DNA from: a virus
IMG/VR virus record: IMGVR_UViG_3300023118_000002
Span: 1-60,247 of that record
Direction: 5' to 3' (one strand)
Length of the DNA: 60,247 bases
Below are positions 38,009 through 60,165 of this stretch, piece after piece (the stretch's first letter is position 1; the number at the start of each line of letters is the position of its first letter). The notes below the pieces were generated by a model, which was not told where the DNA came from, did not search any database, and saw only the letters and a list, made by a program, of their open reading frames with translations. A program made the position numbers and the translations under genes.

Positions 38009-38530
38009 CTACGCATCGAGATAACGAAATGTAAACCCGTGATGGGTCCTAGAGCGTCCGTCACCCCTCAAACAGATGTAAATAGCATTCGCATCACCTG
38101 AAATAGCCTGTGCACATGCTCTCACCGAGTCATAGATTTCTCCTGTTTCTATGATCTGAACTCTGCGAGCCATCCGTCTAAGGCGCTTCCAGTCCCCTGT
38201 GTCTTCCCTTCTGAATATGACTGGGGTACCGTCTGATAGATTCCATCTGAGGTTAAACACGTTTAAGTTACGCGGATCACCATCGACAAAGTCTGGACTC
38301 AACAGAGTAAAGTCAACCGCATTGTAGAAGGCTACAAGCATCAATCTCCAGACAGGTCCATGAAAAGCCCAGTCGTAATACTCAAATGCAACCCAAACAT
38401 CGTGTGTCTTTCGGTCTATGGCCGTCTTTACGTAGTCCTGAGTATCGCTATTAAACACTCTTCCATATGAGCTCACACTCATGTTAGGGAAATGCCTAAT
38501 AGGTCTCCAAATCTCAGGTTCTTGATACAT
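38009..38530 (-). CDS. NUMOD-type homing-endonuclease-like protein (173 aa)
   Basis: EIWRPIRHFPNMSVSSYGRVFN is a NUMOD4 motif. The C-terminus RVQIIETGEIYDSVRACAQAIS and ICLRGDGRSRTHHGFTFRYL is a NUMOD1/intron-encoded-nuclease DNA-binding repeat. The usual HNH core in the middle is degenerate (WRLMLVAFYNAV ... DPRNLNVFNLRW retains a D/N pair). It may be a free-standing homing endonuclease that lost its nuclease or was tamed as a DNA-binding protein. ATG follows GGGGAGTGATTGG. Confidence 0.75.
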   Translation of the reverse strand: MYQEPEIWRPIRHFPNMSVSSYGRVFNSDTQDYVKTAIDRKTHDVWVAFEYYDWAFHGPVWRLMLVAFYNAVDFTLLSPDFVDGDPRNLNVFNLRWNLSDGTPVIFRREDTGDWKRLRRMARRVQIIETGEIYDSVRACAQAISGDANAIYICLRGDGRSRTHHGFTFRYLDA

Positions 38531-38534
38531 CCAA

Positions 38535-38819
38535 TCACTCCCCATTGAAATACAGAATCCTAACTTGTCCAACCGGGATCTGGAAATCTAAAAAGAAATC
38601 CGACCGATAGTCGTAACTATGTATTAGGAGGCCACAGCCGGCATTGTAAGCCTGTCTCTTAGCCTCTGTGGACTGTTGCCTATACTTCTCAACTTCGTAG
38701 CCTCTAACGTCCACAGAGCCATCTGTGTGCACTTCGAAAGCAGGAGAGAAGTTGAGCTTTATAGGACTAACGGCCCCGGGCAAGATAAGCTTCCAATGAT
38801 CCGTAGGCTTCAATCTCAT
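38535..38819 (-). CDS. Hypothetical protein (94 aa)
   Basis: A soluble beta-rich protein (FSPAFEVHTDGSVDVRGYEVEKY and LIHSYDYRSDFFLDFQIPVG). It overlaps the end of the upstream gene by 53 nt and precedes the NUMOD gene by 4 bp. I recognise no family. Confidence 0.6.
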   Translation of the reverse strand: MRLKPTDHWKLILPGAVSPIKLNFSPAFEVHTDGSVDVRGYEVEKYRQQSTEAKRQAYNAGCGLLIHSYDYRSDFFLDFQIPVGQVRILYFNGE

Positions 38820-40498: not shown

Positions 40499-40676
40499 CA
40501 AGTTTCCTGTAACCGAGTGCCATATGTAGCTGCTTAGGCGCATCGGGCTCAACCAACTGCATAGTGTCCGCTACAGCCTGAGCTACACTATCCGAGAAAG
40601 TTTTCTTCGTGAGCTTCTTAGGGATCTTAACTATTATCTGGCCGTGGCCTTCTATGTTAATTTTAATTTTAGCCAT
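40491..40676 (-). CDS. Hypothetical protein (61 aa)
   Basis: The N-terminus forms a beta hairpin (AKIKINIEGHGQIIVKIPKK) followed by a helix (TFSDSVAQAVADTMQLV). This beta-beta-alpha composition suggests a small DNA- or protein-binding fold. It overlaps the helicase start by 8 nt and may be a helicase accessory protein. Confidence 0.6.
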   Translation of the reverse strand: MAKIKINIEGHGQIIVKIPKKLTKKTFSDSVAQAVADTMQLVEPDAPKQLHMALGYRKLDA

Positions 40677-40971
40677 CACGCTCCACTAGATGCAAGTTAG
40701 TAACACAGTTGTCTGAATAATCCCCCGAGATATGCCGCACATCCACTTCCTCGCCGTAGTTTACAAAGAATGCTTGAGCTACAAGACGATGCACAAAGAA
40801 GTTTTTAGCAACACCATTACGTGAGAGTTTTACAATGAGCTTACCCACGTTTTTTGAGTGCACCCACGGCTTTAGATCTCGGTTATGCTTAGCGTTTACC
40901 ACCGTGCCATAATTGCTAACCGCGTAGTTGGGATATCCCTCAATCTCGACAAAGACTTCTTCTACCTGCAT
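40669..40971 (-). CDS. NUMOD4/HNH homing-endonuclease-like protein (100 aa)
   Basis: VFVEIEGYPNYAVSNYGTVVN is a clear NUMOD4 motif, followed by FFVHRLVAQAFF and VDVRHISGDYSDNCVTNLHLV, the HNH core with H...N...N (the second His replaced, R-H-I-S-G-D). It is a compact, likely active or recently degraded endonuclease. Such genes move between phages. It starts at the TAATG overlap with the gene upstream. Confidence 0.75.
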   Translation of the reverse strand: MQVEEVFVEIEGYPNYAVSNYGTVVNAKHNRDLKPWVHSKNVGKLIVKLSRNGVAKNFFVHRLVAQAFFVNYGEEVDVRHISGDYSDNCVTNLHLVERDG

Positions 40972-47652: not shown

Positions 47653-48174
47653 TTAGAAAGGCTCTTCGAGAGGGTTCTCGCGGAACACAACACTAGATTG
47701 CGTACTGCTGATCTTGTTCTCGGGGACCTCTGCATACTTCATCTCGAGCTCGTCTTCCTCGATGGTGAAGTATCCACTACGAAGGTAGGCAGTAATACCC
47801 TGCTTACCGTTGAAGTCATAGTGGTAGGGGTTGACGATCAGGTCGACATTGGTGAGCACAGCCCAGTCCAGCATCGGCATGTCTTCCTCGTCGAGAGTCG
47901 TCTTGTTGCGTGAAGTCACAAGGACCAGACGCGGACGCGGCTCGCTGTTGAAGTTGACCTTGATCTTAAGGAAGGGCTGGGGCTGATCATCGTCATCACG
48001 AGGCTTGAGGTACTTCACGTTCCAGCCATCGGCCTTCATCTGAGTAGCCACATCGTCGTTCAGGAGAACCAGGAAGTTACGCTCTCCCTTGTTGTTGAAC
48101 TGTCCCTCCTTACCCGAGAAGTTACGGATACGGATCTGGACGCCCTCCATAGTGACGTCATCTTTGCGTGCCAT
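47653..48174 (-). CDS. Probable ssDNA-binding protein (173 aa)
   Basis: The pattern VTMEGVQIRIRNFSGKEGQFNNKGERNF, ADGWNVKYLKPRDDDDQPQP, then KTTLDEEDMPMLDWAVLTNVDLIVNPY and GITAYLRSGYFTIEEDELEMKY is that of a conserved protein that I recognise in replication regions of Firmicutes and actinophages. Beta-rich content and position downstream of the polymerase support an OB-fold SSB. The start ATG lies after AAGGAAGACTAAGCAA; the longer frame has no binding site. Role not proven. Confidence 0.7.
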   Translation of the reverse strand: MARKDDVTMEGVQIRIRNFSGKEGQFNNKGERNFLVLLNDDVATQMKADGWNVKYLKPRDDDDQPQPFLKIKVNFNSEPRPRLVLVTSRNKTTLDEEDMPMLDWAVLTNVDLIVNPYHYDFNGKQGITAYLRSGYFTIEEDELEMKYAEVPENKISSTQSSVVFRENPLEEPF

Positions 48175-48178
48175 TTGC

Positions 48179-48529
48179 TTAGTCTTCCTTCTGCAGTTCG
48201 TCGTTCTTTGCGATTGCCTTGTGCGCCCACATGGACGCTTCCTCGAGTGCGGTCTGAGCAAGGTCTGCTTCACGAGACTTACCGAGACGACGGTTCAATC
48301 CCTTAGCAAAGCCCTTGAAGTTCTCTCGCAGTTCAGCGTGCTGAGCAGTACTATTGTTCGGACCCTCGATGGTCGCCTTGTGGAAACCAAAGCGGTTCTC
48401 GATCTCGTCATCGCTAAGCAGGGTGTTCTCGAACTGCACCACCTCGATACCTTCGGGAAGAGGCTGTCCCGCCGGCCAGATCGGCTCCTGGGGCTGCCCA
48501 ACCGGGCTCTGGGTGTTGAATTCACTCAT
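48179..48529 (-). CDS. Acb2/Tad1-type cyclic-nucleotide sponge, putative anti-CBASS/anti-Thoeris protein (116 aa)
   Basis: Residues ~38-113 form a hairpin domain: LSDDEIENRFGFHKAT, HAELRENFKGFAKGLNRRL, SREADLAQTALEEASMWAHKAIAKN. The pattern I-x-x-R-[FY], then L-R-x-x-x-x-x-[FL]-A, then S-R-E-x-x-L-A-x-T-x-L-E-E-A-x-M-W-A-x-x-A-I-A-[RK]-N is the Acb2/Tad1 hairpin family that sequesters cyclic oligonucleotide or gcADPR signals. I infer that it protects this phage against CBASS or Thoeris. The N-terminal ~37 residues are a Pro-rich extension. It lies between the SSB-like gene and a small gene. Confidence 0.8.
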   Translation of the reverse strand: MSEFNTQSPVGQPQEPIWPAGQPLPEGIEVVQFENTLLSDDEIENRFGFHKATIEGPNNSTAQHAELRENFKGFAKGLNRRLGKSREADLAQTALEEASMWAHKAIAKNDELQKED

Positions 48530-48764
48530 CAGTTTTCTCCTTTGTTTTGTTGATTACATCTTCGGCTCGGTCAGCATCAAGCACTACTGTACTAAACCCG
48601 ACCAAACTTTCGCTCAGTAGTTCGGAGATGGCATTACCCTCATTAATCTCCATGAGAATATGCACACCATCGCCGTCTACACTTTCGACTTTTGCCTTAC
48701 CGATCGTGGCGCCTCCCTGATAATAGAGAGGCACCCAACCTTCAGCGTCTTTTCCGTCTAGCAA
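48522..48764 (-). CDS. Hypothetical protein (about 80 aa, start uncertain)
   Basis: The frame contains EGWVPLYYQGGATIGKAKVE and a beta-rich, acidic C-terminus. The upstream gene (48742..49014) covers its first part. TTG at 48764 lies behind AGAAGGCGAGTCGAC, whereas the ATG at 48818 has no Shine-Dalgarno sequence, so I prefer the TTG. Function unknown. Confidence 0.5.
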   Translation of the reverse strand: MLDGKDAEGWVPLYYQGGATIGKAKVESVDGDGVHILMEINEGNAISELLSESLVGFSTVVLDADRAEDVINKTKEKTDE

Positions 48765-49014
48765 GTCGACTCGCCTTCTTTCGTAACTTATCCGCCCGCT
48801 TTTGGTGCGCCGCGGCATAACCACGCATGTCGTCTGCACGATGCAGATGCCAATCCTGTTCTTTTTGTACGTCAGCGAGCTTCATGAAAGCTACGTCGAA
48901 ACGCTCGCTCCACTGGTTAGCTAGTTCTACCTCTTGTATCGCTTTAGCCTCCAGCTCTCTTGCTTGATTGCGCTCAGCAGCTTCTTGAGCGAGGAGATCA
49001 TACGCTGTGTCCAT
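48742..49014 (-). CDS. Coiled-coil basic protein (90 aa)
   Basis: An alpha-helical protein, acidic first (EAAERNQARELEAKAIQEVE) and very basic at the end (RADKLRKKASRLARRKRR). The ATG follows GAAGGAACAGTC. The basic tail suggests nucleic-acid binding. It overlaps the 48927..49127 frame by 88 nt. Confidence 0.6.
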   Translation of the reverse strand: MDTAYDLLAQEAAERNQARELEAKAIQEVELANQWSERFDVAFMKLADVQKEQDWHLHRADDMRGYAAAHQKRADKLRKKASRLARRKRR

Positions 49015-49127: not shown

Positions 49128-49525
49128 ACCACTGCTCCAATCACGATCAGGGCGTCAAACACGACGCCATATAGAATACCTCGCCAAAGCCACTTACGCT
49201 TGTCTTCACGACGCTGGTTGTGACTCAGATCGTTCATAGCAAGAACAAGAGCCGCGGCTTTGACCTGCTGCATACTTCTAATCGACTGAACCGCATGACC
49301 CATTAGATGACGCATACCGCCTTTGAGATCGTGATCGGCGTCATAACCCAGATCTTCTATCTGCCGAATCCTTTCAGACATGACGTAGTAGTTCCACTGG
49401 TCCGCGTTCATCGTATCGACAGGCGGGATGTCTTTATACTCAGTGCAAGTACAATTACTAATCAAACAACGAGTGTCACCTTCTGCATGGTATGCGGTTT
49501 TATGCATACAGTTTGCACACCTCAT
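49109..49525 (-). CDS. Zinc-knuckle and membrane-anchor protein (138 aa)
   Basis: The N-terminus MRCANCMHKTAYHAEGDTRC and NCTCTEY has CxxC and CxC zinc sites; a helical middle (ERIRQIEDLGYDADHDLKGG) leads to a C-terminal membrane helix (GILYGVVFDALIVIGAVVW). It is thus a tail-anchored zinc protein. ATG overlaps the polymerase stop (ATGA), so it is translated directly after the polymerase. Confidence 0.65.
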   Translation of the reverse strand: MRCANCMHKTAYHAEGDTRCLISNCTCTEYKDIPPVDTMNADQWNYYVMSERIRQIEDLGYDADHDLKGGMRHLMGHAVQSIRSMQQVKAAALVLAMNDLSHNQRREDKRKWLWRGILYGVVFDALIVIGAVVWTAVL

Positions 49526-52500
49526 GATACGAACCATTCCACATCACCGAACTTGGCAATATTGTCCTTGGCATCGTCAACCAGATGATCGAAGTAACGC
49601 ATGTCGATTGACTTCTCCAACCCCATGGTCTTTACCATCTCAGACTCGAGCCACAAATATCCCGTAGCTCCGGTAGCCGAATGGAACTTCCCATCCTTCT
49701 CACGCTGAAGCAGTCCACCACCCTCAGTTACAGGGCAGAAGACTCCGGTCTTACCAACGAAACGCTTGTTGTCATTAGCGAGGGCCATCATCTCCTTGTC
49801 ATTAGTGAAGTCAAGCCAAAGACTCGTCTGGACCGACTTGGTCTCACACTTGTCCTTAAAGAGAATGTTCTGATGCGTGAAGAGCTTCTTGAAGACGTAC
49901 GGGTGCTTAAACTGCGCTCCCGTGGCATCCCATTCAGCCGGCTTACGTCCGTCAGTTTTCTTACCCACGAACACCGCGTCATTGACAAGACAGATCTTTT
50001 CGTAAGTTGCCTCGTGCTCGAACTCGTATCCGTAGTTCTGACCGAACTCCATGACAGCGTCGATGATGGTCTTAGGATCAGTATCCTTGGGCACCACAAT
50101 CTTGATCGAGTCGGTCTTGATGTGAATGACCTGGTAGCCGAACTCCTGCACCATCTGCTTGCAGAGAATCATGAAGAGAGCTCCACGCTTTGCCACAATG
50201 TTGTCGACATTGCGAGGATCACGGAATGCGTTTTCAAACTTCTGCATGGTGAGCCCGTAAACGATGTTGATAACAATCTTAAGCGCGTATGCCAGAGCGT
50301 CAGAACCAGAAGTGTCCTCGAGGTACTTGGCAAGCCGTCCACCAAACATTTCCCTAGCCTCGTCGAAGTTCTTACGCTTAATAGCGATACGAGCCTTCTT
50401 GATTTCGGCATAGTTCTTGGTGTACTCATCTCCAAAGAGGTTGAGCAGCTCGATCGAGGTCGGATGCATAGATGCAACGTCCAGGAGCACAACGTTCTCG
50501 TACATACCTGGCTCGGCATAAACGTACCCACCTTCACCTGTGATCTCACCATGGAAAGTCGACTTACCACTCTCAAAGGTGTATCCGGGGAATTCATCAG
50601 CAAGGTTCGTATAAACGAATTCCTCCTGCGGCCGACGGTTCTCACCGAAGACAATACGAGCCGCGTGCTGCTGAGTAGTAGCGTTAGCCGAAAGACCGGA
50701 AAGCTCAGACAGAATCTGACGAGCAATGAAGTCTTCCTTACGAGCATCAAACACTGCCTCAGTTGCGCGCACATCGTTTTCACAATATGCTGCAATCTGA
50801 TCCCACATGTCTTCTGGCGCTGGCTTGTCCCATGGAATACTCATCTCAACGTGAGGAATATCCAGATCGACTTCCCACTTCTTCAAGCTCTTCTTCTCAT
50901 TTGCGAAGTCAAAGACGTCGGTATAAGAGAGGTTGTAGGCTTCACCGAAGGTGGCATTCGGTACGTTGCTGATCAGCTTCTGACTGAGCTTGTAAAGCCG
51001 CTCGTTGTCATAACCAAGATAGCGAGCATACAGAATGTGATTGTCGTACTTCCGGTTGTTGAACCCGACGAGACGAAACTTGAGAAGTTGCTCGACCTCT
51101 GCAGGTGATGGGTTGATCATGGTAGTGACGTTCTCAGCACCATAATACTTCCAGCAGATCATGAAGAGGTTGGAATATACCTCAAGGTCAAAGATGACGA
51201 TTGGTACTTCCTTAACCTCCTCTTCAACATCCTCATACTTCTCTTCCGACACCTCAGAAGCAAACTTCATCTGAGCTACCAGACGCATAGCCGGCAACGC
51301 TTGGTTGGTCGAGTTTCCTGCAAAGGCAAGGATCTTGTTACGCATGTCAGTCACGTCATAGACGAGGTCTGAGGCATACGCATCTTCTAGAATCTTATGA
51401 ATGAAGTCCACACTAGATTTGGTACCAGGATGAATCTCCTTCCGCAGGTTCCGGTCGATCAATTCCCGGAGAGCTTTCTCCGACTTGATCTGGTCTGAAT
51501 TCATCACTTTTTTCTCCTTGGTTGGAAGTGCTCCAGGATGGAGAGTTGCCACGGGTATATTGTTACACCGAGACAATCTTCTACGAAGGCTTGCATCTCC
51601 ATTAAAGACTTTGACTTCGATTCCATCGTCGTAGACCGACGAGAGTTCCGAGACGTCTCCGTCATAGATATAGTGGAGGTGGATGCCCGCGCCACTCTTG
51701 GAGAACTCCGCGTATGTGCTAGGCCACGAGCTCGCTTTCTCGAGGCTCCTTTCCGCGCTTTTTTCACCGGTTGCATCCCTCAAATCGAAGTCGATCACAA
51801 TATGATTCTGCGGTACCTTAACGTAATGCTCTTGGGTAGTGTCAAGATCCTGCAGCATAGTATGGACTACTTTAGAATCGGCAGGAATATACTCTTTACC
51901 ATCCTTACCGATCCTCGGGTTGTTCGTCCAGAACTTCATGTAACCGTCGTCGTTCACAGAATACTGCGCCGGCATGGTTGCCATCTCACGATCGAACAGG
52001 CTTTCGGTTTCGTCCATTACCAAAGAGAACACTCGAGCTTCCTCGACATGCTTCTGTGACTTGAACTTGTCAGCAGTAAACCCGGTGTACCAGCTGCGAC
52101 TGCGTGTTCCATCCTCTGCAATGTGAACGTCTTCGAAGTTCTCGAAGTAATTCTTAAGCTCCTCACGGAACTTGTACATCGGCATAGAGAATGAGAGATC
52201 AGCTTCTTTAACGTAATCCTTGTACAGATCGAAAGCTCTTTTGAGACTAATTCCCTCCGGGTCTTTTAGGTCCTCCCAATGCCACTCAACGAAGTTGAAG
52301 AACACGTCAGTTTGCAACATCATGTCCTCCGGCACATACCCCGAGTAGTAATCCTTACCCATGTTGCGATAAACCTCGAGGGCGTGAGACGCAATTGCCC
52401 CAAGCTCGAACTCAATACGCGACATAAGTGCCTGATACTTACGAGGACTAACCTTGTTACCCGTAGGCTTCACGTCGATGAGACGACGCAACAGACCGCT

Positions 52501-53358
52501 CTTCGAGTCCGTAATCTTCACAGGCTTGTTAGTACCCATGAAGAGGAAGGCGTTGAAGAACATGTCATACGAAGGCTTGTACTTCTCGTTTACATTCATT
52601 ACCTCATGCGAGACAATAGAGTTGAGAGTGGTGTTGTCTTCGATTTTGGAGAGGTCGCCATCATGCTGTATCGCCACAAGCGGGTTGCTTTTGAAGGCTT
52701 CAGTGGCAAAGGCATTGTTATTACCAGTGAGCTGCTTGGCATTGAAGGTAACGAAATATCCTTCAGTGAGCTTTTGCAGGATGAGTAGGAAGGTAGACTT
52801 ACCAGTACCAGCGGCTCCGTAAAGAACAACAAATTTCTGGATCTGTTTAGCATCTCCGGCAATAATAGCTCCGAGAGCCCACTCAAGCTTGGCTCTCTCA
52901 TCAGGAGAGTATAGCGTTCCAATGAGCTCATCGTATGCTGAGTAATCTCCGGGTTGTAATGAATATGCCAGTCGTCTTGAAACATAGTCTTCTTTTTTCA
53001 CCTCCGTATTAGCAAATGTCAGGTCCACGTCAAGCTGTGTGCTGTTGTCACTAAGATGTCCGATGTAATTCCTGAATTGCAACCACGTATTCGTGCTGAA
53101 GTTGCCCAGGTACTTACGATGAACTTCCGTAACTGGTTCGGTGGTTACCTCATAAGCTTTAATATCCTCGTCTACTAGACGCTGAACATCGTACTCATCG
53201 GTTGACCAAAGACCCTTTGCTTCGTCCCAGATGGCATAGAAACTCCGGCCTCGGACCATAAGATCCTTGGAACGGATGACCTTGAAGTCAGGATATACCT
53301 CAACAACTCCAAGCTTTTTGCCTTCTAGCGGCCGCTCCTTAATTTGATCGAAATCCAT
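49522..53358 (-). CDS. Fused SF3 helicase, PrimPol and family B DNA polymerase (1278 aa)
   Basis: Three replication modules are joined. (1) Residues ~1-480: SF3/D5-type helicase with Walker A GAAGTGKST (181-189) and FLFMGTNKP / LLRRLIDVKPTG sensor blocks. (2) ~490-650: archaeo-eukaryotic PrimPol, VIDFDLRDATG (DxD) and SGAGIHLHYIY (sGxHxH). (3) ~720-1278: polymerase B with exonuclease motifs IFDLEVY, FNNRKYDNHILY and YCENDVRA, and polymerase motifs DVASMHPTSI (A), KIVINIVYG (B) and IKTDSI (C). One chain could unwind, prime and extend. Other phages usually encode these in two or three genes. Confidence 0.9.
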   Translation of the reverse strand: MDFDQIKERPLEGKKLGVVEVYPDFKVIRSKDLMVRGRSFYAIWDEAKGLWSTDEYDVQRLVDEDIKAYEVTTEPVTEVHRKYLGNFSTNTWLQFRNYIGHLSDNSTQLDVDLTFANTEVKKEDYVSRRLAYSLQPGDYSAYDELIGTLYSPDERAKLEWALGAIIAGDAKQIQKFVVLYGAAGTGKSTFLLILQKLTEGYFVTFNAKQLTGNNNAFATEAFKSNPLVAIQHDGDLSKIEDNTTLNSIVSHEVMNVNEKYKPSYDMFFNAFLFMGTNKPVKITDSKSGLLRRLIDVKPTGNKVSPRKYQALMSRIEFELGAIASHALEVYRNMGKDYYSGYVPEDMMLQTDVFFNFVEWHWEDLKDPEGISLKRAFDLYKDYVKEADLSFSMPMYKFREELKNYFENFEDVHIAEDGTRSRSWYTGFTADKFKSQKHVEEARVFSLVMDETESLFDREMATMPAQYSVNDDGYMKFWTNNPRIGKDGKEYIPADSKVVHTMLQDLDTTQEHYVKVPQNHIVIDFDLRDATGEKSAERSLEKASSWPSTYAEFSKSGAGIHLHYIYDGDVSELSSVYDDGIEVKVFNGDASLRRRLSRCNNIPVATLHPGALPTKEKKVMNSDQIKSEKALRELIDRNLRKEIHPGTKSSVDFIHKILEDAYASDLVYDVTDMRNKILAFAGNSTNQALPAMRLVAQMKFASEVSEEKYEDVEEEVKEVPIVIFDLEVYSNLFMICWKYYGAENVTTMINPSPAEVEQLLKFRLVGFNNRKYDNHILYARYLGYDNERLYKLSQKLISNVPNATFGEAYNLSYTDVFDFANEKKSLKKWEVDLDIPHVEMSIPWDKPAPEDMWDQIAAYCENDVRATEAVFDARKEDFIARQILSELSGLSANATTQQHAARIVFGENRRPQEEFVYTNLADEFPGYTFESGKSTFHGEITGEGGYVYAEPGMYENVVLLDVASMHPTSIELLNLFGDEYTKNYAEIKKARIAIKRKNFDEAREMFGGRLAKYLEDTSGSDALAYALKIVINIVYGLTMQKFENAFRDPRNVDNIVAKRGALFMILCKQMVQEFGYQVIHIKTDSIKIVVPKDTDPKTIIDAVMEFGQNYGYEFEHEATYEKICLVNDAVFVGKKTDGRKPAEWDATGAQFKHPYVFKKLFTHQNILFKDKCETKSVQTSLWLDFTNDKEMMALANDNKRFVGKTGVFCPVTEGGGLLQREKDGKFHSATGATGYLWLESEMVKTMGLEKSIDMRYFDHLVDDAKDNIAKFGDVEWFVS

Positions 53359-53382: not shown

Positions 53383-53928
53383 CTATACATTGATGTTCTC
53401 CATCAAGTATTGGGACATTTGGTACCATATCTCGACTTCCCGCTGGTCGTGTCCAGGGTGTCGAAGAGGGAACAACCCCTCACTTCCATCTGCTCGATAG
53501 GTGCGGTTGACGACTCCACGAATAAGTTCGTCAATTTCAATCTGGACCTGGTCGTTAAACATCTCATCGACGTAACGACGCAGGTCCAGATTATCCATTA
53601 ATCTCCAGAACCAATAGTCGGTACCCATCTGGGTCTCGAAATCCATTCTGCCGGCGAGGGCGACGACCATCTCAAGGAAACTGCATGGCTCTGATAGCCA
53701 CATCCCATCGACGTCGCCGCCCTCTTCCTCATCTACAAATCGCTGGCGCAAGTCCAGACCATCGTAGAGTCGGTTGTCATCATTAGGAATGAACCAGCTG
53801 AACTCAACCTTGTAAAGCTGCACGCACAGAAGCCAATGACTCCTTGCCGGATTACGCTGAGTGTCTGGTTCAAGTTGACGGTGTAGCCAGGTTAGATACC
53901 GCTCATCGAGTGTTCCATTAGTCGCCAT
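53383..53928 (-). CDS. Conserved protein with IPNDDNR-DGLDLR signature (181 aa)
   Basis: The motif FSWFIPNDDNRLYDGLDLRQRF, then EPCSFLEMVVALAGRMD, YWFWRLMDNLDL and GLFPLRHPGHDQREVEIWYQM is characteristic of a phage protein that I recognise from many genomes of Firmicutes phages; no function is established. It lies right downstream of the polymerase fusion and near the other shared families. Confidence 0.8.
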   Translation of the reverse strand: MATNGTLDERYLTWLHRQLEPDTQRNPARSHWLLCVQLYKVEFSWFIPNDDNRLYDGLDLRQRFVDEEEGGDVDGMWLSEPCSFLEMVVALAGRMDFETQMGTDYWFWRLMDNLDLRRYVDEMFNDQVQIEIDELIRGVVNRTYRADGSEGLFPLRHPGHDQREVEIWYQMSQYLMENINV

Positions 53929-54733
53929 CACTCTCCCGCATCTTGAGCGGCTTCGTCATCATCCGCTTCATTTCATCCTCTGGGATGATGTTAAGGACCA
54001 CACGGGTGTACGTCCGGTCGTCACGAGTGACCTCGTAGTCGTTCTCCTGACGCTCGTCACGGATATAGACCTGGTTCTCGTCGGTAGTTCCCTGGCCCCA
54101 CTTCTGATCGAAGAGCTCACCCAGAACTTGCTTGGGGTTCGGAACGATCTGCTCACTCGAGTCGATGAGCGTCTCATCCCCTTCGAAATATGTCAGCTCG
54201 AGCTTCGAGTAAGGGCTTTCGCTCTCCATGTACTCGTCGATCGAGATGACATACGGACCGTTGGGATCACGAACCGTTGTGAAGCTGGGCACAGAAGGCA
54301 CCGGAATATCCGCGTCAGCATCAACGTCGTCTACCTGGCCCGGGAAAGTAACTCCGCCGTAAGGAACAGTCTGACTCTTGAACTTCTCGATGATGCCCTT
54401 GACGTCTACCTGATTCTCAGGATCGTCATCATCAGACTCCGTCGGCTTCGGATCTGCCGAGTCGTACTCATCGATCACACCTGGATCTTCAAGAGGCTGC
54501 TCATGCTCGAGCGGACCGGTCTCCGGGTGAAGCTCAGCAACGGCCGATTCCGGAGTTGCATAGGGACCAGTCTTGTTGGCGCGATGAATATCGTCAATCC
54601 AGTCAGCCCGGATCTCTTCGACTGCTTTGTTGAAGCCCTTGGTTGCCCGGCGCATCGCTGCGAAATATCCGATGCCGAAACCGGCTCCCAGTCCTGCCGC
54701 GACAAGACCAGCGTATTTAAGTTTGATGTTCAT
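53918..54733 (-). CDS. Membrane-anchored acidic protein with conserved C-terminal domain (271 aa)
   Basis: An N-terminal membrane helix (YAGLVAAGLGAGFGIGYFAA) precedes a long acidic linker (residues ~50-150). The C-terminal ~100 residues have ISIDEYMESESPYSKLELTYFEGDETLIDSS and NQVYIRDERQENDYEVTRDDRTYTRVVL, a domain that I recognise from conserved phage membrane proteins of Firmicutes and actinobacteria. It overlaps the next gene by 11 nt. Function unknown. Confidence 0.8.
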   Translation of the reverse strand: MNIKLKYAGLVAAGLGAGFGIGYFAAMRRATKGFNKAVEEIRADWIDDIHRANKTGPYATPESAVAELHPETGPLEHEQPLEDPGVIDEYDSADPKPTESDDDDPENQVDVKGIIEKFKSQTVPYGGVTFPGQVDDVDADADIPVPSVPSFTTVRDPNGPYVISIDEYMESESPYSKLELTYFEGDETLIDSSEQIVPNPKQVLGELFDQKWGQGTTDENQVYIRDERQENDYEVTRDDRTYTRVVLNIIPEDEMKRMMTKPLKMRESDGD

Positions 54734-55149
54734 TACTTCTTCTCCTGAGTTTTGGTAGCCGGCTTGCGACGGGGGTTTCTTTTGACTGGCGGTTTGCTCG
54801 GCTCCATGTTTTTCCGAAGCTCCTGCAAGGCGGGGTTATCCCGAAATGGAGTTTGAGTGAGGTGCTCTTTTGGAACGTAAGGCATCTTCTTAAGACCACC
54901 TTCTTTTGGTATGATGAACTCTCGCGCTACTTCATCGGTGAAGACTTCGTCACCAATCTGCTCAAGGTTCTTGAGAAAGAGCTCATGGTCAAACTTAGTT
55001 CCGTCAGGCGCAGGAATATGCTTGACAGGTGCCTCTACGAGATTCTTGGTGTCCTTCATGGCCTCAGTCAATTCTTTGATCTGAGCAGAAGTCTTAAGAG
55101 TATCCTCACTGAATTTATTTGGTCGGGGTTTGGGCTTCGGAATTTCCAT
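54733..55149 (-). CDS. Hypothetical protein with basic C-terminus (138 aa)
   Basis: A soluble charged protein (EIPKPKPRPNKFSEDTLKTS; LTEAMKDTKNLVEAP; LEQIGDEVFTDEVAREF) ending in a basic Pro-rich tail (KPPVKRNPRRKPATKTQEKK). ATG ATG after AAGGAGAGA mark the start. It lies in the conserved membrane-protein operon between two families known from other phages. Confidence 0.6.
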   Translation of the reverse strand: MEIPKPKPRPNKFSEDTLKTSAQIKELTEAMKDTKNLVEAPVKHIPAPDGTKFDHELFLKNLEQIGDEVFTDEVAREFIIPKEGGLKKMPYVPKEHLTQTPFRDNPALQELRKNMEPSKPPVKRNPRRKPATKTQEKK

Positions 55150-55169
55150 CATTCTCTCCTTGTAAAGTG

Positions 55170-55210
55170 AGAGGCCGCAACGATACTTTTCAAATAGCAT
55201 TGCGGCCTCT
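55170..55210 (-). terminator. Terminator hairpin after the DUF6353-like gene
   Basis: Arms 55170-55180 and 55200-55210 (AGAGGCCGCAA and its complement) form a perfect 11-bp stem with a 19-nt loop, 24 nt after the stop of 55234..56130. No T-run follows on the minus strand. Confidence 0.65.
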
Positions 55211-55233
55211 GTGTAACTTTGAACTGCTAGTGA

Positions 55234-56130
55234 TTAGATCTTGTCGTAGATCACCCCGTCGACGTTGAAGTCGAGCCAGATGTTCTTTTCCCAACCGTTG
55301 ATGAAGTTGCGCTTGGACTGAGTGGATGCGTCATACAGACCAAAGTCGATGAAGTTGTCACCGTCCTTGCTGATGATCCATCCCACAACTGCACCTTCAG
55401 GGGTGTGCGGGAATCCGAGACGCTCATAAACCTCATTGAGGAAGATGTGCCCGGTTGCAAGCAGCTTGTCATTGAGTCGGTTCTGCTCGGACGTCAAGAA
55501 GAACTGGTTGTAACCAGCTCCATCCTGCCAGTAGTCATTACCCTCATCAAAGACACGAGCGTACTTGCTCATCTTGGTCGGGTCGACCTCAGTGACCACA
55601 GTCTTCTTACCGTCAGGACCCTTCTCCGAAGACTCGGTGATGCCCAGTCGGTAGTCCCGATCTTTGTCTGCACCGAGGTCCTCGATCACACGAGCACGGT
55701 AAGCCGCGAAGCTCTTCTCAACTGCGTTGTATGCAGCGACAAGTGCGACGTTACGCTTACGCATGATGCCGTGACCTGCAAGGATTGCTCCAGCACCGGA
55801 GATAAAGAGGGACGTAGCAGGGCCATAGAGCTTGGTGAACTCCAGCACGTTTCTCAAATATACTCTGTAAAGCTGGCGCTTGTAGTTGGCCTCGGTGTAC
55901 TCTTCAACCTCGTCAGGGTTTTCCTGAGAGAGAGCATAAGACTGCTTCGTGTCGTTGACACGGCGCTCAGCACGAGCAACCGTTTCTTCAAGACGAAGGG
56001 TAGAACGAACCGCGAGAAAAGCTCCGGCGGACATACTGACAAGACCAACGCCCGTCAGAATCTCCGGCGCGTACTTCTTGACCAGCAGCCCACCTCGGCC
56101 TACAACACCGTTGAGGCTAGTTGGTACCAT
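55234..56130 (-). CDS. Membrane protein of the DUF6353-like phage family (paralogue 2, about 298 aa)
   Basis: Two membrane helices (about residues 22-43 and 107-130) with a charged coil between, then a soluble domain with HIFLNEVYERLGFPHTPEGAVVGWI and the end WEKNIWLDFNVDGVIYD. The layout matches the paralogue at 2877..3671. I recall this family (DUF6353) from many phages; in Firmicutes phages it lies near the IPNDDNR and SVADLYDL families, as here. Function unknown. Confidence 0.8.
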   Translation of the reverse strand: MVPTSLNGVVGRGGLLVKKYAPEILTGVGLVSMSAGAFLAVRSTLRLEETVARAERRVNDTKQSYALSQENPDEVEEYTEANYKRQLYRVYLRNVLEFTKLYGPATSLFISGAGAILAGHGIMRKRNVALVAAYNAVEKSFAAYRARVIEDLGADKDRDYRLGITESSEKGPDGKKTVVTEVDPTKMSKYARVFDEGNDYWQDGAGYNQFFLTSEQNRLNDKLLATGHIFLNEVYERLGFPHTPEGAVVGWIISKDGDNFIDFGLYDASTQSKRNFINGWEKNIWLDFNVDGVIYDKI

Positions 56131-56422
56131 CATTTTTCTCCTTCATTTCTATTTCTAGTTGTTTCTCTTCCGGAGTCTTAGGTCGGACTCGGAATTCTTG
56201 TCGAACGCTGAATCTGTGATCCTCTTCTACAAGGATGTTATCAGCTCGGATGATTGTGACGGGGTATTCTTCGATCACGTAGTAAAGCGCAAATACTTCA
56301 GGAGACAGACCAGACGCATGGACCATCGCCTCAAGCCATTGCTCTTTGTCGTAAGCGATCGAGTCAACGATGTTCATGACGAACTCTTGAAACTGGAAAG
56401 GCCCGTCTCCTGTGTCAGGCAT
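56117..56422 (-). CDS. Hypothetical protein (101 aa)
   Basis: A soluble protein with FQFQEFVMNIVDSIAYDKEQ and a Glu/Lys-rich C-terminal helix (EEKQLEIEMKEKNDGTN). The ATG lies inside the end of the upstream gene (8-nt overlap). The longer frame would overlap the upstream gene by more than 200 nt, so I chose this ATG. Confidence 0.55.
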   Translation of the reverse strand: MPDTGDGPFQFQEFVMNIVDSIAYDKEQWLEAMVHASGLSPEVFALYYVIEEYPVTIIRADNILVEEDHRFSVRQEFRVRPKTPEEKQLEIEMKEKNDGTN

Positions 56423-56669
56423 TTGGGTGATCTTCAGCCAAGCCGGGTCGGATACTTCCAATAGGCCCGTGATCGGTAAGCCCTCCGGCGTTGACCATGA
56501 ACTCGGAAGCGGGGGACAGCCCGTATAGACTCTGTCCGCTTTTAAATTCGAACCCAAGAGTCTCAAGATCTCCTGATTTGACGTTTCGCCGCTCGTTAAC
56601 TTTTGAAACGGTACCGAATCCTGCGACATAATCACCTACCGCTATCTCACTTGCTGGGATGTTTAGCAT
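56415..56669 (-). CDS. Hypothetical protein (84 aa)
   Basis: Beta-rich start (MLNIPASEIAVGDYVAGFGT) and a Gly-rich end. ATG overlaps the TAA of the 48-aa gene (TAATG) after GGAGAAAGAAGATC. The I-x-V-G-D-Y-V-x-G-x-G pattern suggests a small barrel-like nucleic-acid or hub protein. Not recognised. Confidence 0.6.
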   Translation of the reverse strand: MLNIPASEIAVGDYVAGFGTVSKVNERRNVKSGDLETLGFEFKSGQSLYGLSPASEFMVNAGGLTDHGPIGSIRPGLAEDHPNA

Positions 56670-56815
56670 TAGATCTTCTTTCTCCACATAAGGGGCTCGT
56701 GCATAGAATCTGCAAATTCCCAACCCGCTTCAAAAAGAATCTTGACGACATCTTGAGGTAGACCTGAGATGACAGAAACATTCTCGATGATCTCTGCCTG
56801 CAGCGAAATATCCAT
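56669..56815 (-). CDS. 48-aa microprotein
   Basis: The frame MDISLQAEIIENVSVISG... PLMWRKKI is a short helical protein that starts at the TAATG overlap with the stop of 56815..57489 and ends at TAATG with the next gene. Double overlap in both directions supports it. No motif recognised. Confidence 0.6.
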   Translation of the reverse strand: MDISLQAEIIENVSVISGLPQDVVKILFEAGWEFADSMHEPLMWRKKI

Positions 56816-57489
56816 TATCGGATAGGCTTAGTCGCCGGCAGATCAAGCACGAATCCGTCTCGAACACTGGTGATAGTGGCACCACGCAAGTCGAACCACC
56901 CCCACTTGTCATCTGCATAGCTGCCCGTGATCTGCACAAGCTCATACAGATCGGACACCGCTGCTACATCGTAACGATCTACGATATCGATGAGGCTTGA
57001 CAGAACCAGCTCTGCCTCGGCACGGGTTTGAAGCACGATGTTGTCGAAGTTGTGAGTAGCCATATCTCGTGATGAGATCTCCCTTGAAGGGGTTGTGGTA
57101 CCACCATTACGACTGATCAAGTTATAGTTAACCTGACCTGGACGGCGACTTCCGTTACCGGGAATCCCAACACTCTGTCCGAACAGAGCACGGTTAGCAC
57201 CCTGTGAGATCATGTCAAATATAACTGTCTTGATAGCCGGCACTGCCACCTCAAAGAGGAGATAGTCACCAACACCGCGTGCATCATCACCTGTAAAAGC
57301 CTGACGAAGACGCGATGCGAGCTTTGGCTTCTGCTTAACCGCTGTCACACCCTCGAGAGGAACGATCTTAGGCTTAACTTTGCCCTCTTCGGTTGCGCCC
57401 TCTTTGCTTTTCTTGCTGTTGGGTGGGAATGCGGCACGGTTAACTCGAGCTGGATCAACCAAGGGGGTCTTTTCTTCATTTTCAGGCAT
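56815..57489 (-). CDS. Conserved phage protein of the SVADLYDL type (224 aa)
   Basis: LLFEVAVPAIKTVIFDMISQGANRALFG, NYNLISRNGGTT, NFDNIVLQTRAEAELVLSS and VAAVSDLYELVQITGSYADDKWGWFDLRGA are blocks that I recognise from a conserved phage protein of Firmicutes (usual form VSVADLYDLVG...NYTDNKYGW). N-terminal ~65 residues are a charged linker. It has no clear enzyme motif. Together with the IPNDDNR and DUF6353 families it marks a module that is shared across phage groups. Confidence 0.8.
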   Translation of the reverse strand: MPENEEKTPLVDPARVNRAAFPPNSKKSKEGATEEGKVKPKIVPLEGVTAVKQKPKLASRLRQAFTGDDARGVGDYLLFEVAVPAIKTVIFDMISQGANRALFGQSVGIPGNGSRRPGQVNYNLISRNGGTTTPSREISSRDMATHNFDNIVLQTRAEAELVLSSLIDIVDRYDVAAVSDLYELVQITGSYADDKWGWFDLRGATITSVRDGFVLDLPATKPIR

Positions 57490-57511
57490 GTTTTGTCCTT
57501 TTGCTTAGAAA

Positions 57512-57541
57512 AGCTAAATGGGTTGTTATACCCACCTAGCT
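57512..57541 (-). terminator. Hairpin with internal mismatch before 56815..57489
   Basis: Stem AGCTA (57512-57516)/TAGCT (57537-57541), two mismatched bases, then TGGGT/ACCCA around a 6-nt loop. It lies between the stop of 57548..57925 and the next gene. Weak stem; may be a leader element. Confidence 0.5.
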
Positions 57542-57547
57542 AAGTTA

Positions 57548-57925
57548 CTACTGGTTGTCCGACTCAGGCTTGTTGTCGTCCTGCTTTTTCTGGAGATCTT
57601 CGTCTGATGCGTGAAGAAGCTCCTTCTCCCAATCAGCCAAAGGCTCTTTATCACTCGGCTCGATTGCGTGATCGGCTTTCGGGTTGAACAGAGCGCTCAC
57701 CTTTTCTGCGTAGTTGTCGATCTGACTGGAGACGTGCTTTGCGGAAAGATCGCCCAGAACACCGGACAATCCCCAGCCTCCGATGGAGACCATGACTTTC
57801 TGGATCTTGCCAGAATCAAGGGGCGTAGTTGCCTTAACGAGATTGCCGACGACTGCTCCGACGCCGGCGCTTACTGCGAGTTCAGCTACACCTTTCAGAA
57901 GGCTAAGCTTGTTGATTGTTGCCAT
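57548..57925 (-). CDS. Membrane-associated small protein (125 aa)
   Basis: Residues ~8-32 form a hydrophobic Ala/Val/Gly segment (KGVAELAVSAGVGAVVGNLV), then a second Gly-rich segment (VMVSIGGWGLSGVLGDLSA), then an acidic hydrophilic tail. A perfect promoter of the conserved family lies 49 nt upstream, and TCTTGAAAGGAGAACA precedes ATG. Its style matches the small membrane-protein set at 2.4-6.8 kb. Confidence 0.7.
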   Translation of the reverse strand: MATINKLSLLKGVAELAVSAGVGAVVGNLVKATTPLDSGKIQKVMVSIGGWGLSGVLGDLSAKHVSSQIDNYAEKVSALFNPKADHAIEPSDKEPLADWEKELLHASDEDLQKKQDDNKPESDNQ

Positions 57926-57973
57926 GTTGTTCTCCTTTCAAGAGACAAATATAAAGCACCGGTTAGGGTCCTT

Positions 57974-57999
57974 CGTTATAGTGCATGTTATTTGTGCGA
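57974..57999 (-). promoter_or_regulatory. Phage promoter, TCGCA-N5-AACA-N5-TATAACG
   Basis: On the minus strand: TCGCA, CAAAT, AACA, TGCAC, TATAACG. It starts 5 nt before the stop of the lipoprotein gene and drives 57548..57925. It is the only copy of the family in this part of the genome. Confidence 0.75.
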
Positions 58000-58003
58000 A
58001 TGT

Positions 58004-58534
58004 TTACTTACTCGTGAAGATGGCGTTCTTGTACTCGAAGCTGGGGGAGTAGGCGATCGTGATATCTGCGGCGTCAGCAACGCTGAAAGCCTCGTTCCAC
58101 TTCATCGTCTGTCCAGCAAGAAGCGGGCCAGCGGGGGTGTCGCCGATGTTCTGACCGAAGTCCGAGATCGCTGCAGCCTGCTGTCCACCGGAGGTAGCTG
58201 TGGGCCACCCAGCCTGGTCGAGAGTCTTGTCCGAGTTGTTGGTAACTACGAGAGTGACCTGAATATAAGTCATTCCAGCAGTCGCTCCAGCCGCCTCAGG
58301 AGAAGGCGTGTATGGCGCTGCAGGGCTCACCGAGACGCTGACACCGTCCTTGTAGGTCACTACCTCGCCGAACTTCTTGACCAAAGGATCGGTCACAGGA
58401 GCAGGTGCCGGCTTCTCAACGGTTGCCGAGGAGGCCTTGGGATCTGCGTGGGTGGAACCCTGAACGGCGCATCCTGACATCAGGAGAACGACGGGGAGGG
58501 CGATTGCGATGCTGATTTTCTGGATGGTGTTCAT
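58004..58534 (-). CDS. Secreted lipoprotein with DUF4352-like domain (176 aa)
   Basis: Lipobox VVLLMSGC at residues ~15-22 after a basic start, so signal peptidase II cleavage and lipidation of Cys22 are expected. A linker follows, then a DUF4352-like immunoglobulin domain (FGEVVTYKDGVSVSVSPAAPYT..., YIQVTLVVTNNSDKTLD). Phage lipoproteins on the outer face of the membrane often block DNA entry of other phages; I infer superinfection exclusion here. ATG follows TCTTGAAAGGAGAAACCTAAA. Confidence 0.85.
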   Translation of the reverse strand: MNTIQKISIAIALPVVLLMSGCAVQGSTHADPKASSATVEKPAPAPVTDPLVKKFGEVVTYKDGVSVSVSPAAPYTPSPEAAGATAGMTYIQVTLVVTNNSDKTLDQAGWPTATSGGQQAAAISDFGQNIGDTPAGPLLAGQTMKWNEAFSVADAADITIAYSPSFEYKNAIFTSK

Positions 58535-58668
58535 TTTAGGTTTCTCCTTTCAAGAGAATTTATTTGTTGGTAAAAGTGTCGTTTTTATTACATAGCCTGG
58601 CAGGGCTTGTAACTGACCAGCTCACTTTAAGGCTGGAGGACGACATTCCCATCTGACTGCCATCAGCG

Positions 58669-58758
58669 TGCCCGCCCAGGGACTCGAACCCTGGATCTGT
58701 CAGAGGATATGAACATTATTTAGAGGTTCATACTTGAAGACGCTACCGTCTCGCGGGC
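58669..58758 (-). tRNA. tRNA-like element, class II-like with odd anticodon loop
   Basis: On the minus strand 90 nt fold as a tRNA: acceptor GCCCGCG/GGCGGGC plus discriminator A (one G-G mismatch), a reduced D arm, a 7-bp anticodon stem (TATGAAC/GTTCATA) with an 11-nt loop (CTCTAAATAAT), a short variable hairpin (TCTGACAGA), and a canonical T arm CAGGG-TTCGAGT-CCCTG. CCA is not encoded. The loop does not give a clear anticodon, so it may be a degenerate or special-function tRNA. Confidence 0.5.
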
Positions 58759-58762
58759 TACC

Positions 58763-58802
58763 TCTCATCGCCTATCTTGAAAGGAGGTTTGTGGCGATGA
58801 GA
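58763..58802 (-). terminator. Inverted repeat after 58809..59501
   Basis: Arms 58763-58772 and 58793-58802 (TCTCATCGCC and GGCGATGAGA) form a perfect 10-bp stem with a 20-nt loop. It lies between the stop of 58809..59501 and the tRNA-like element and may terminate transcription or mark a processing site. Confidence 0.6.
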
Positions 58803-58808
58803 AACTTG

Positions 58809-59501
58809 TTACTGCTGCGGTGCCTGGCCCGGGAAGAGATCCGTGCGAGGTGTGGACTGCTGAGTTACACCTTCCGCCGGAACTGCCGCATCTGGAACCG
58901 GAGTTCCACCGTAAGGGTATCCGTCAGGTCCAGCAGTCGGTGTCTGATACTGCTGAGGAGGCTGAACTTCCTGGGGCGCGGAGAACTGTACAGGCTGAGC
59001 GGGGGCAGTATCCTGCTGTCCCTGAGGAACTCCAAGACTTCCGGGGGTACCTGCTCCGCCCGCAACCGGAGGAGTAGGCCGCTCGGTGTTTGCACCAGGC
59101 CGAAATCCCTTGACTGCCTGTGCCTCACGATTCTTCGCAGCAATGTCTGGAGGAAGAATTGCGTTGATGAACTCCGCGGAATATCCACCGTTCTGAAGGA
59201 GCTCCATGATGAGAACAGAGTACGGCTCCGAGTTCTCAAAGCGAGCCCAGACCTCGTCGGACTTGAAGAAGGATTCACCATCCTCGCTCTTCTCACCATA
59301 GGTCCACTTGAGGATCTTGCGGAACTCCGGCATAACGACAGAGCCCTTATCTGAGGCACTGATCTTAGCCAGGGTCTCTGACCAGGTTCCATCGGACTCG
59401 AGCTCACGCATGGCAAGCTCGGCCTTGGTCAAGTTGAAGTAGAAATCTTTCGTGACCTGCTGGCCGTTGAAGTTGGTGTATGTAATCGGCTTGACGAGCA
59501 T
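58809..59501 (-). CDS. Conserved phage protein with TYTDFNG-type N-terminal domain (230 aa)
   Basis: Residues 1-125 hold ITYTNFNGQQVTKDFYFNLTKAEL, RKILKWTYGEKSEDGESFFKSD and LIMELLQNGGYSAEFINAILP, a domain that I recognise from Firmicutes phages (TYTDFNG...FYFNLT). The remaining ~100 residues are a Gln/Pro/Gly-rich linker (PVAGGAGTPGSLG...). This is one of several shared families of this region. Function unknown; it may be a structural or chaperone-like protein. Confidence 0.75.
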   Translation of the reverse strand: MLVKPITYTNFNGQQVTKDFYFNLTKAELAMRELESDGTWSETLAKISASDKGSVVMPEFRKILKWTYGEKSEDGESFFKSDEVWARFENSEPYSVLIMELLQNGGYSAEFINAILPPDIAAKNREAQAVKGFRPGANTERPTPPVAGGAGTPGSLGVPQGQQDTAPAQPVQFSAPQEVQPPQQYQTPTAGPDGYPYGGTPVPDAAVPAEGVTQQSTPRTDLFPGQAPQQ

Positions 59502-59509
59502 TGTTTTCC

Positions 59510-59989
59510 TTAAATTGCGTTGTGGTCAAAGACCTGGTTTGCGGTTTTCTTGTAGGTGTCGACGTATGTTTGGTGCCGTGTGACATCGTGTGTGACTTCG
59601 AAATATAGCCCGTCACCTGGAACTGTGGTGGAGATCATTGCTTTCCAGTTGCCCAGAATATAGGTCCACCAGACAATGTAGAGCTGCTCGACCGTCAACT
59701 CGTCTTCACCAGATTCGGCTGTGACAACTGCGTGAGCACCAACTACATACTGCTTGGCGTAGCGAAGGAAACGGTTAGGATCTTTGTCGTAATCCGAGGT
59801 GTCTTCGAACGGGGGATCTGCCTTGGAGGCCCACTTGGGTACCGAACTTCCATCGGGAAGTTTATCAATAGCCTCCTTCGAACATTGGGGACATAGTCCA
59901 GGTCCACCACAGCGCGCTCGGACTCGCTTGTACGATTCATCGTCGCTTGATGTTCCCGGAATATGATGTCCGTGACTTGTTAGAGCCAT
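59510..59989 (-). CDS. Fusion: actinophage HGHHIPGT zinc-knuckle domain and DUF6275-like domain (159 aa)
   Basis: The N-terminus SHGHHIPGT then CGGPGLCPQC is typical of small actinophage proteins and binds zinc. From about residue 70 the sequence FLRYAKQYVVGAHAVVTAES, LTVEQLYIVWWTYILGNWKAMISTTVPGDGLYFEVTHD and YVDTYKK matches the DUF6275 family of Firmicutes phages. The join of the two is unusual. Function unknown. Confidence 0.75.
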   Translation of the reverse strand: MALTSHGHHIPGTSSDDESYKRVRARCGGPGLCPQCSKEAIDKLPDGSSVPKWASKADPPFEDTSDYDKDPNRFLRYAKQYVVGAHAVVTAESGEDELTVEQLYIVWWTYILGNWKAMISTTVPGDGLYFEVTHDVTRHQTYVDTYKKTANQVFDHNAI

Positions 59990-60165
59990 CTTGGGTCCCT
60001 TTCTTCATCTGCTGGTTGTGCTTTGACGATCTCTCGGTAAGTGTCAGTCCACTGGCGGCCTGTCCAAAAGCGATCGTGAGTCACACTCCAGATCTTGTAC
60101 CCGATGGAAGTGTCGTCTGGAGGGTTTTGCTCACTTTCCGGTAGCGCGTTAGTTACTTCATCCAT
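59980..60165 (-). CDS. Hypothetical protein (61 aa), crosses the circular join
   Basis: The protein (MDEVTNALPESEQNP..., YKIWSVTHDRFWTGRQWTDTY) is soluble and Trp-rich. Its first 15 codons lie in the 127-bp overlap that recurs at the left end. It precedes the DUF6275-like gene and overlaps it by 10 nt. The WTGRQWTDT block recalls short actinophage proteins; no function known. Confidence 0.65.
   Translation of the reverse strand: MDEVTNALPESEQNPPDDTSIGYKIWSVTHDRFWTGRQWTDTYREIVKAQPADEERDPRWL

Follow-up and report, generated by a model that had tools for sequence, protein, structure and literature searches.

A divergent Acb2-like hairpin protein with a proline-rich N-terminal extension, probably a CBASS-blunting sponge, in the replication region of a likely actinobacterial phage

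We analyzed a single virus record of 60,247 bases (hereafter the window, meaning this whole stretch) and found that one of its minus-strand genes encodes a 116-residue member of the Acb2/Tad1 hairpin family, with a predicted Acb2-type monomer fold and conservation at key positions. Acb2 is well known to sequester the cyclic oligonucleotides of CBASS, and the window protein most probably acts as a sponge of the Acb2 type that binds cyclic di- and/or trinucleotides and blunts CBASS. The gene and the features around it were as follows.

48179..48529, minus strand: acb2-like gene, 116 aa (ATG at 48529, stop ending at 48179)
48410..48529, minus strand: Pro-rich N-terminal extension, residues 1-40 (in-frame coding; predicted coil, pLDDT 67-80)
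48182..48409, minus strand: Acb2-type core, residues ~41-116, assigned by AlphaFold2 and conservation (bears F49, R68, R86, T93 and W101)
48530..48545, minus strand: Shine-Dalgarno region (AAAGGAG), by direct sequence reading
47653..48174, minus strand: downstream ssDNA-binding-protein gene (PF24083, E 8.1e-64), same operon as judged by packing
48522..48839, minus strand: overlapping small upstream gene, 105 aa, no family found
49522..53358, minus strand: primase/polymerase gene belonging to the same module (59% identity with actinophage proteins annotated as primase/polymerases), replication module

The initial annotation had quoted two peptides from this region and had not given a strand; both were found in the minus-strand 116-aa translation, and the plus-strand reading of 48179-48529 is merely a fortuitous open frame. 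The AAAGGAG sequence is located ~7 nt ahead of the ATG. At its start the acb2-like frame shares 8 nt with the end of the upstream 105-aa gene, and at its other end the ssDNA-binding-protein gene follows 4 nt past the stop. The upstream gene, whose relatives were sought for comparison of starts, had no Pfam match and no relative in the viral contig set. Codon statistics trained on 24 other window genes gave an in-frame log-likelihood of +15 bits for the 29 Pro-rich codons at the start of the gene and of +58 bits for those of the core. Reference windows of 29 codons had medians of +17 bits in frame and -26 bits out of frame, and none of the out-of-frame windows in the tested genes reached +15 bits. 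The in-frame score thus indicates that the Pro-rich codons are truly coding, and a spurious start or an untranslated extension was ruled out by the codon statistics together with the gene packing. Translation might alternatively begin at an internal GTG (codon 30), which is preceded by a weak Shine-Dalgarno sequence, GAAGG. This start would open a gap of ~80 nt amid otherwise tightly packed genes; nonetheless, gaps of 80-99 nt occur three times nearby.

Membership in the Acb2/Tad1 hairpin family, which had been proposed together with an HMM search as a check, was borne out by this search: Pfam PF24729 (Acb2/Tad1 hairpin) matched residues 62-108 with an E value of 5.8e-13 and a score of 49.3 bits, above the curated cut-off of 27 bits. 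In the genome search the same model gave the window protein 50.4 bits, and 0 of 14 controls matched. Against a profile built from 58 relatives, with the window protein excluded, this protein obtained 99.7 bits, and none of the 1,919 shuffles scored exceeded 7.3 bits. PHROG 1454, which has no functional name in PHROGs v4, matched residues 34-112, along nearly the whole family, with E 3.9e-21. The number of phage records in which tblastn detected relatives was 197 at E 0.01 and 227 at E 1, the majority being phages of Mycobacterium, Paenibacillus, Gordonia, Streptomyces and Microbacterium; the relatives are at most 51% identical and mostly annotated as hypothetical. A profile scan of viral contigs yielded 434 relatives. 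All 10 phage relatives tested were above the PF24729 cut-off, which is also exceeded by T4 Vs.4 and by PaP2 gp26; the latter we take to be the solved PaP2 Acb2, an identification based on its length and family match rather than on an accession. Searching the PDB with the single sequence returned only T4 Vs.4 at E = 1, and the family profile was needed to match the 'Acb2 homolog 43' chain (9ptq) with E 1.3e-8; rows for influenza haemagglutinin and integrase in the profile search were dismissed as helical-coil noise. The profile-profile match to canonical T4/PaP2-type Acb2 (94.6% probability, E 7e-8) covered the C-terminal 32 columns only.

Alignment of 59 relatives and 11 canonical Acb2 sequences was carried out in three MAFFT modes, its N-terminal half resting on the multiple alignment and the Pfam model. 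Y8, K23 and T68 of T4 Acb2 were placed at F49, R68 and T93, respectively, in all three modes. Previous mutants of T4 Acb2 showed that Y8A abolishes function and that T68M reduces it (PMC12657230). Phe or Tyr occupies position 49 in 55 of the 59 relatives, Arg68 is invariant (59/59), and position 93 is Thr in 52/59. As far as the alignment indicates, positions known to matter for T4 Acb2 binding are kept in kind. The change from T4 Tyr8 to Phe49 is a conservative swap with loss of the hydroxyl, and Arg68 stands where canonical Acb2 has Lys (Lys23/Lys26). This Lys is invariant in the canonical set, and Lys26 presumably has a ligand role in PaMx33 Acb2. It should be noted that Trp101 and Ala98 are invariant in part by construction, as both were in the search pattern, whereas His50, Arg68 and Arg86 lie outside it. 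The invariants of the 11 canonical sequences, which are not a published defining criterion, are Gly-Tyr, Asn20, Lys23, Arg79 and Pro84. The window protein has G48 and F49 at Gly-Tyr, R68 at Lys23 and K104 at Arg79; lost from the canonical set are N20 (Ala65), R79 (Lys104, with Ala in about half of the relatives) and P84 (Asn109).

By analogy with the Acb2 family, the window protein would form a homo-hexamer whose inter-protomer pockets hold cyclic dinucleotides, with Phe49 stacking on the base and Arg68 contacting the phosphate, and cyclic trinucleotides would perhaps be held at the trimer interface of the hairpins. The CBASS signal would be sequestered, not cut, so that the Cap effector would stay off and the phage would replicate. 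The range of ligands bound may not be the same as for T4 Acb2. A sponge directed chiefly at another nucleotide signal (e.g., cA3 of type III CRISPR, or a decoy nucleotide) and not at CBASS dinucleotides appears unlikely, yet it is the alternative that survives best. Acb2 has a separate, independent site for cA3 (PMC12043709), and the flanks of the dinucleotide pocket are unlike those of T4 Acb2, with the hairpin core and T93 retained; however, the presumed dinucleotide contacts, Phe/Tyr49 and Arg68, are conserved. With Phe in place of Tyr and Arg in place of Lys in its pocket, the protein is a sensible candidate for studying the evolution of ligand choice.

The location in a replication region, as initially described, was also seen here: the acb2-like gene lies among the polymerase, PF24083 ssDNA-binding, ThyX and DUF3310 genes. 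The sponge is probably produced together with the replication genes, and early timing would be expected from what is known of the family. In four other phages (L020, L054, L003 and JoyLin, L012), a PF24729 gene was located within a few kb of the same polymerase and ssDNA-binding pair, and in further phages relatives of ~50% identity were found near capsid, lysis/holin or terminase genes. Because the gene is beside the replication module in some phages and beside capsid, holin or terminase genes in others, it behaves as cargo with a favored site. These observations also bear on the idea that the hairpin protein is no longer a CBASS sponge and was co-opted, for example as a partner of the adjoining replication or ssDNA-binding proteins, which we consider improbable. 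Such co-option would fit three features: in five phages with this replication module the gene neighbors that of the polymerase or the ssDNA-binding protein, several canonical Acb2 invariants are lost, and a Pro-rich tail has been added. However, the relatives in capsid, lysis or terminase regions indicate that the gene is not bound to replication, the ligand-relevant positions are the ones retained, and the core is ~50% identical across very different phages. In three contigs (L018, L023 and L027), whose terminases share 69-71% identity with that of the window, a hairpin gene was observed immediately ahead of the terminase gene and outside the replication module. The terminase of the window is most similar to those of Streptomyces phages (76%), and its polymerase to those of Microbacterium and Arthrobacter phages; since these are all actinophage proteins, an actinobacterial host is likely, as judged by sequence similarity.

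The Pro-rich extension had been called unusual, and it is both coding in frame and unusually long: 49 residues precede the invariant His in the window protein, versus a median of 14 in the 59 relatives. The next longest arm (40 residues, in L020) has in common with that of the window protein just a few residues, immediately ahead of the core. The model predicts the extension to be unstructured, and a special explanation for it is unneeded. It is very doubtful that the arm adds an activity, either as a tether to a phage or host protein (e.g., the neighboring ssDNA-binding protein) or as a pocket cap altering ligand choice; if it did, the protein would differ in function from a plain Acb2.

An AlphaFold2 model of the monomer, built from 59 sequences, had a mean pLDDT of 84, with values of at least 90 across most of the hairpin. 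It contains a short helix (residues 40-47), two long ones (61-81 and 86-111) and no strand, and the residues before 40 are coil. The Acb2 protomer consists of a short helix at the N-terminus followed by a pair of long antiparallel helices, whereas Tad1 has an N-terminal four-stranded antiparallel beta-sheet and two helices, and the loops of the sheet form most of its gcADPR pocket (PMC12043709, PMC10419184). The window protein thus has, in the model, the layout of Acb2 and not that of Tad1. A Foldseek structural search with the model gave no significant match, a small helical hairpin having little discriminating power. VIA listed Tad1 chains amid unrelated helical proteins, with Z of 4.0-4.7 and a hairpin identity of 21-26%; Acb2 chains were absent from its list, and its scores are within reach of unrelated helical hairpins. 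A Tad1-type sponge, binding gcADPR and blocking Thoeris besides CBASS, was set aside as hardly credible: PF24729 spans the hairpins of both Acb2 and Tad1 and the family profile also matches Tad1 chains (~3e-4), but the Pfam match is confined to the hairpin, and the N-terminal beta domain, whose loops supply most of the Tad1 pocket, is missing from the model. The initial annotation had included gcADPR binding and Thoeris inhibition, and this part was unsupported, with residues 1-39 modeled as coil; such activity would not be expected because the predicted Acb2 layout lacks the beta domain.

Compared with known systems, the window protein shares with Acb2 (T4 Vs.4, PDB 7UQ2; Pseudomonas PaP2/PaMx33, PDB 8H2J) both PF24729 and the arrangement of a short helix followed by two long antiparallel helices. 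By the alignment it keeps the aromatic residue (Y8/Y11, here F49), the basic residue (K23/K26, here R68) and Thr68 (here T93), and it differs in its short hairpin loop, its 40-residue Pro-rich N-terminal extension and the changes at N20, R79 and P84. With Tad1 (PDB 7UAV, 8KBF) it has the hairpin domain in common, without the N-terminal beta domain. Actinophage relatives also carry PF24729, are at most ~51% identical, and mostly do not have a long N-terminal extension. Published examples include the Acb2-like protein gp57 of Microbacterium phage Statler (PMC13348362) and the putative Acb2 of cluster E mycobacteriophages Xandras and BigBubba (PMC11953737), which we liken to the window protein from their descriptions, not by alignment. 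The Acb2-like gp61 of Curtobacterium phage JoyLin adjoins the same replication module and has a C-terminal addition in place of the N-terminal extension. The window protein is therefore an ordinary member of the known Acb2 family, in which actinophage members are already annotated. It adds a divergent member from an actinobacteria-type phage and leaves the picture of this sponge family unchanged, while supporting the view that the counter-defence gene is widespread beyond proteobacterial phages and moves between genome modules.

Several additional observations were made. The JoyLin hairpin protein (4977-5474 of L012) has an extra C-terminal stretch of ~80 aa with no Pfam match, and its gene is followed by one annotated as nicotinate ribosyltransferase, which hints at a small counter-defence or NAD cluster adjoining the same replication module. 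A 141-aa protein of the hairpin family in L038 (3995-4420) also has a C-terminal addition past the Acb2-like core. Two NUMOD4/HNH-type homing endonuclease-like genes are present in the window on the minus strand (38009-38572 and 40669-40971), and upstream of the polymerase, at 53383-60000 on the same strand, is a run of genes matching PHROG families that carry no functional assignment, namely 4678, 4695, 2152, 4079, 7539, 806, 4282 and 918.
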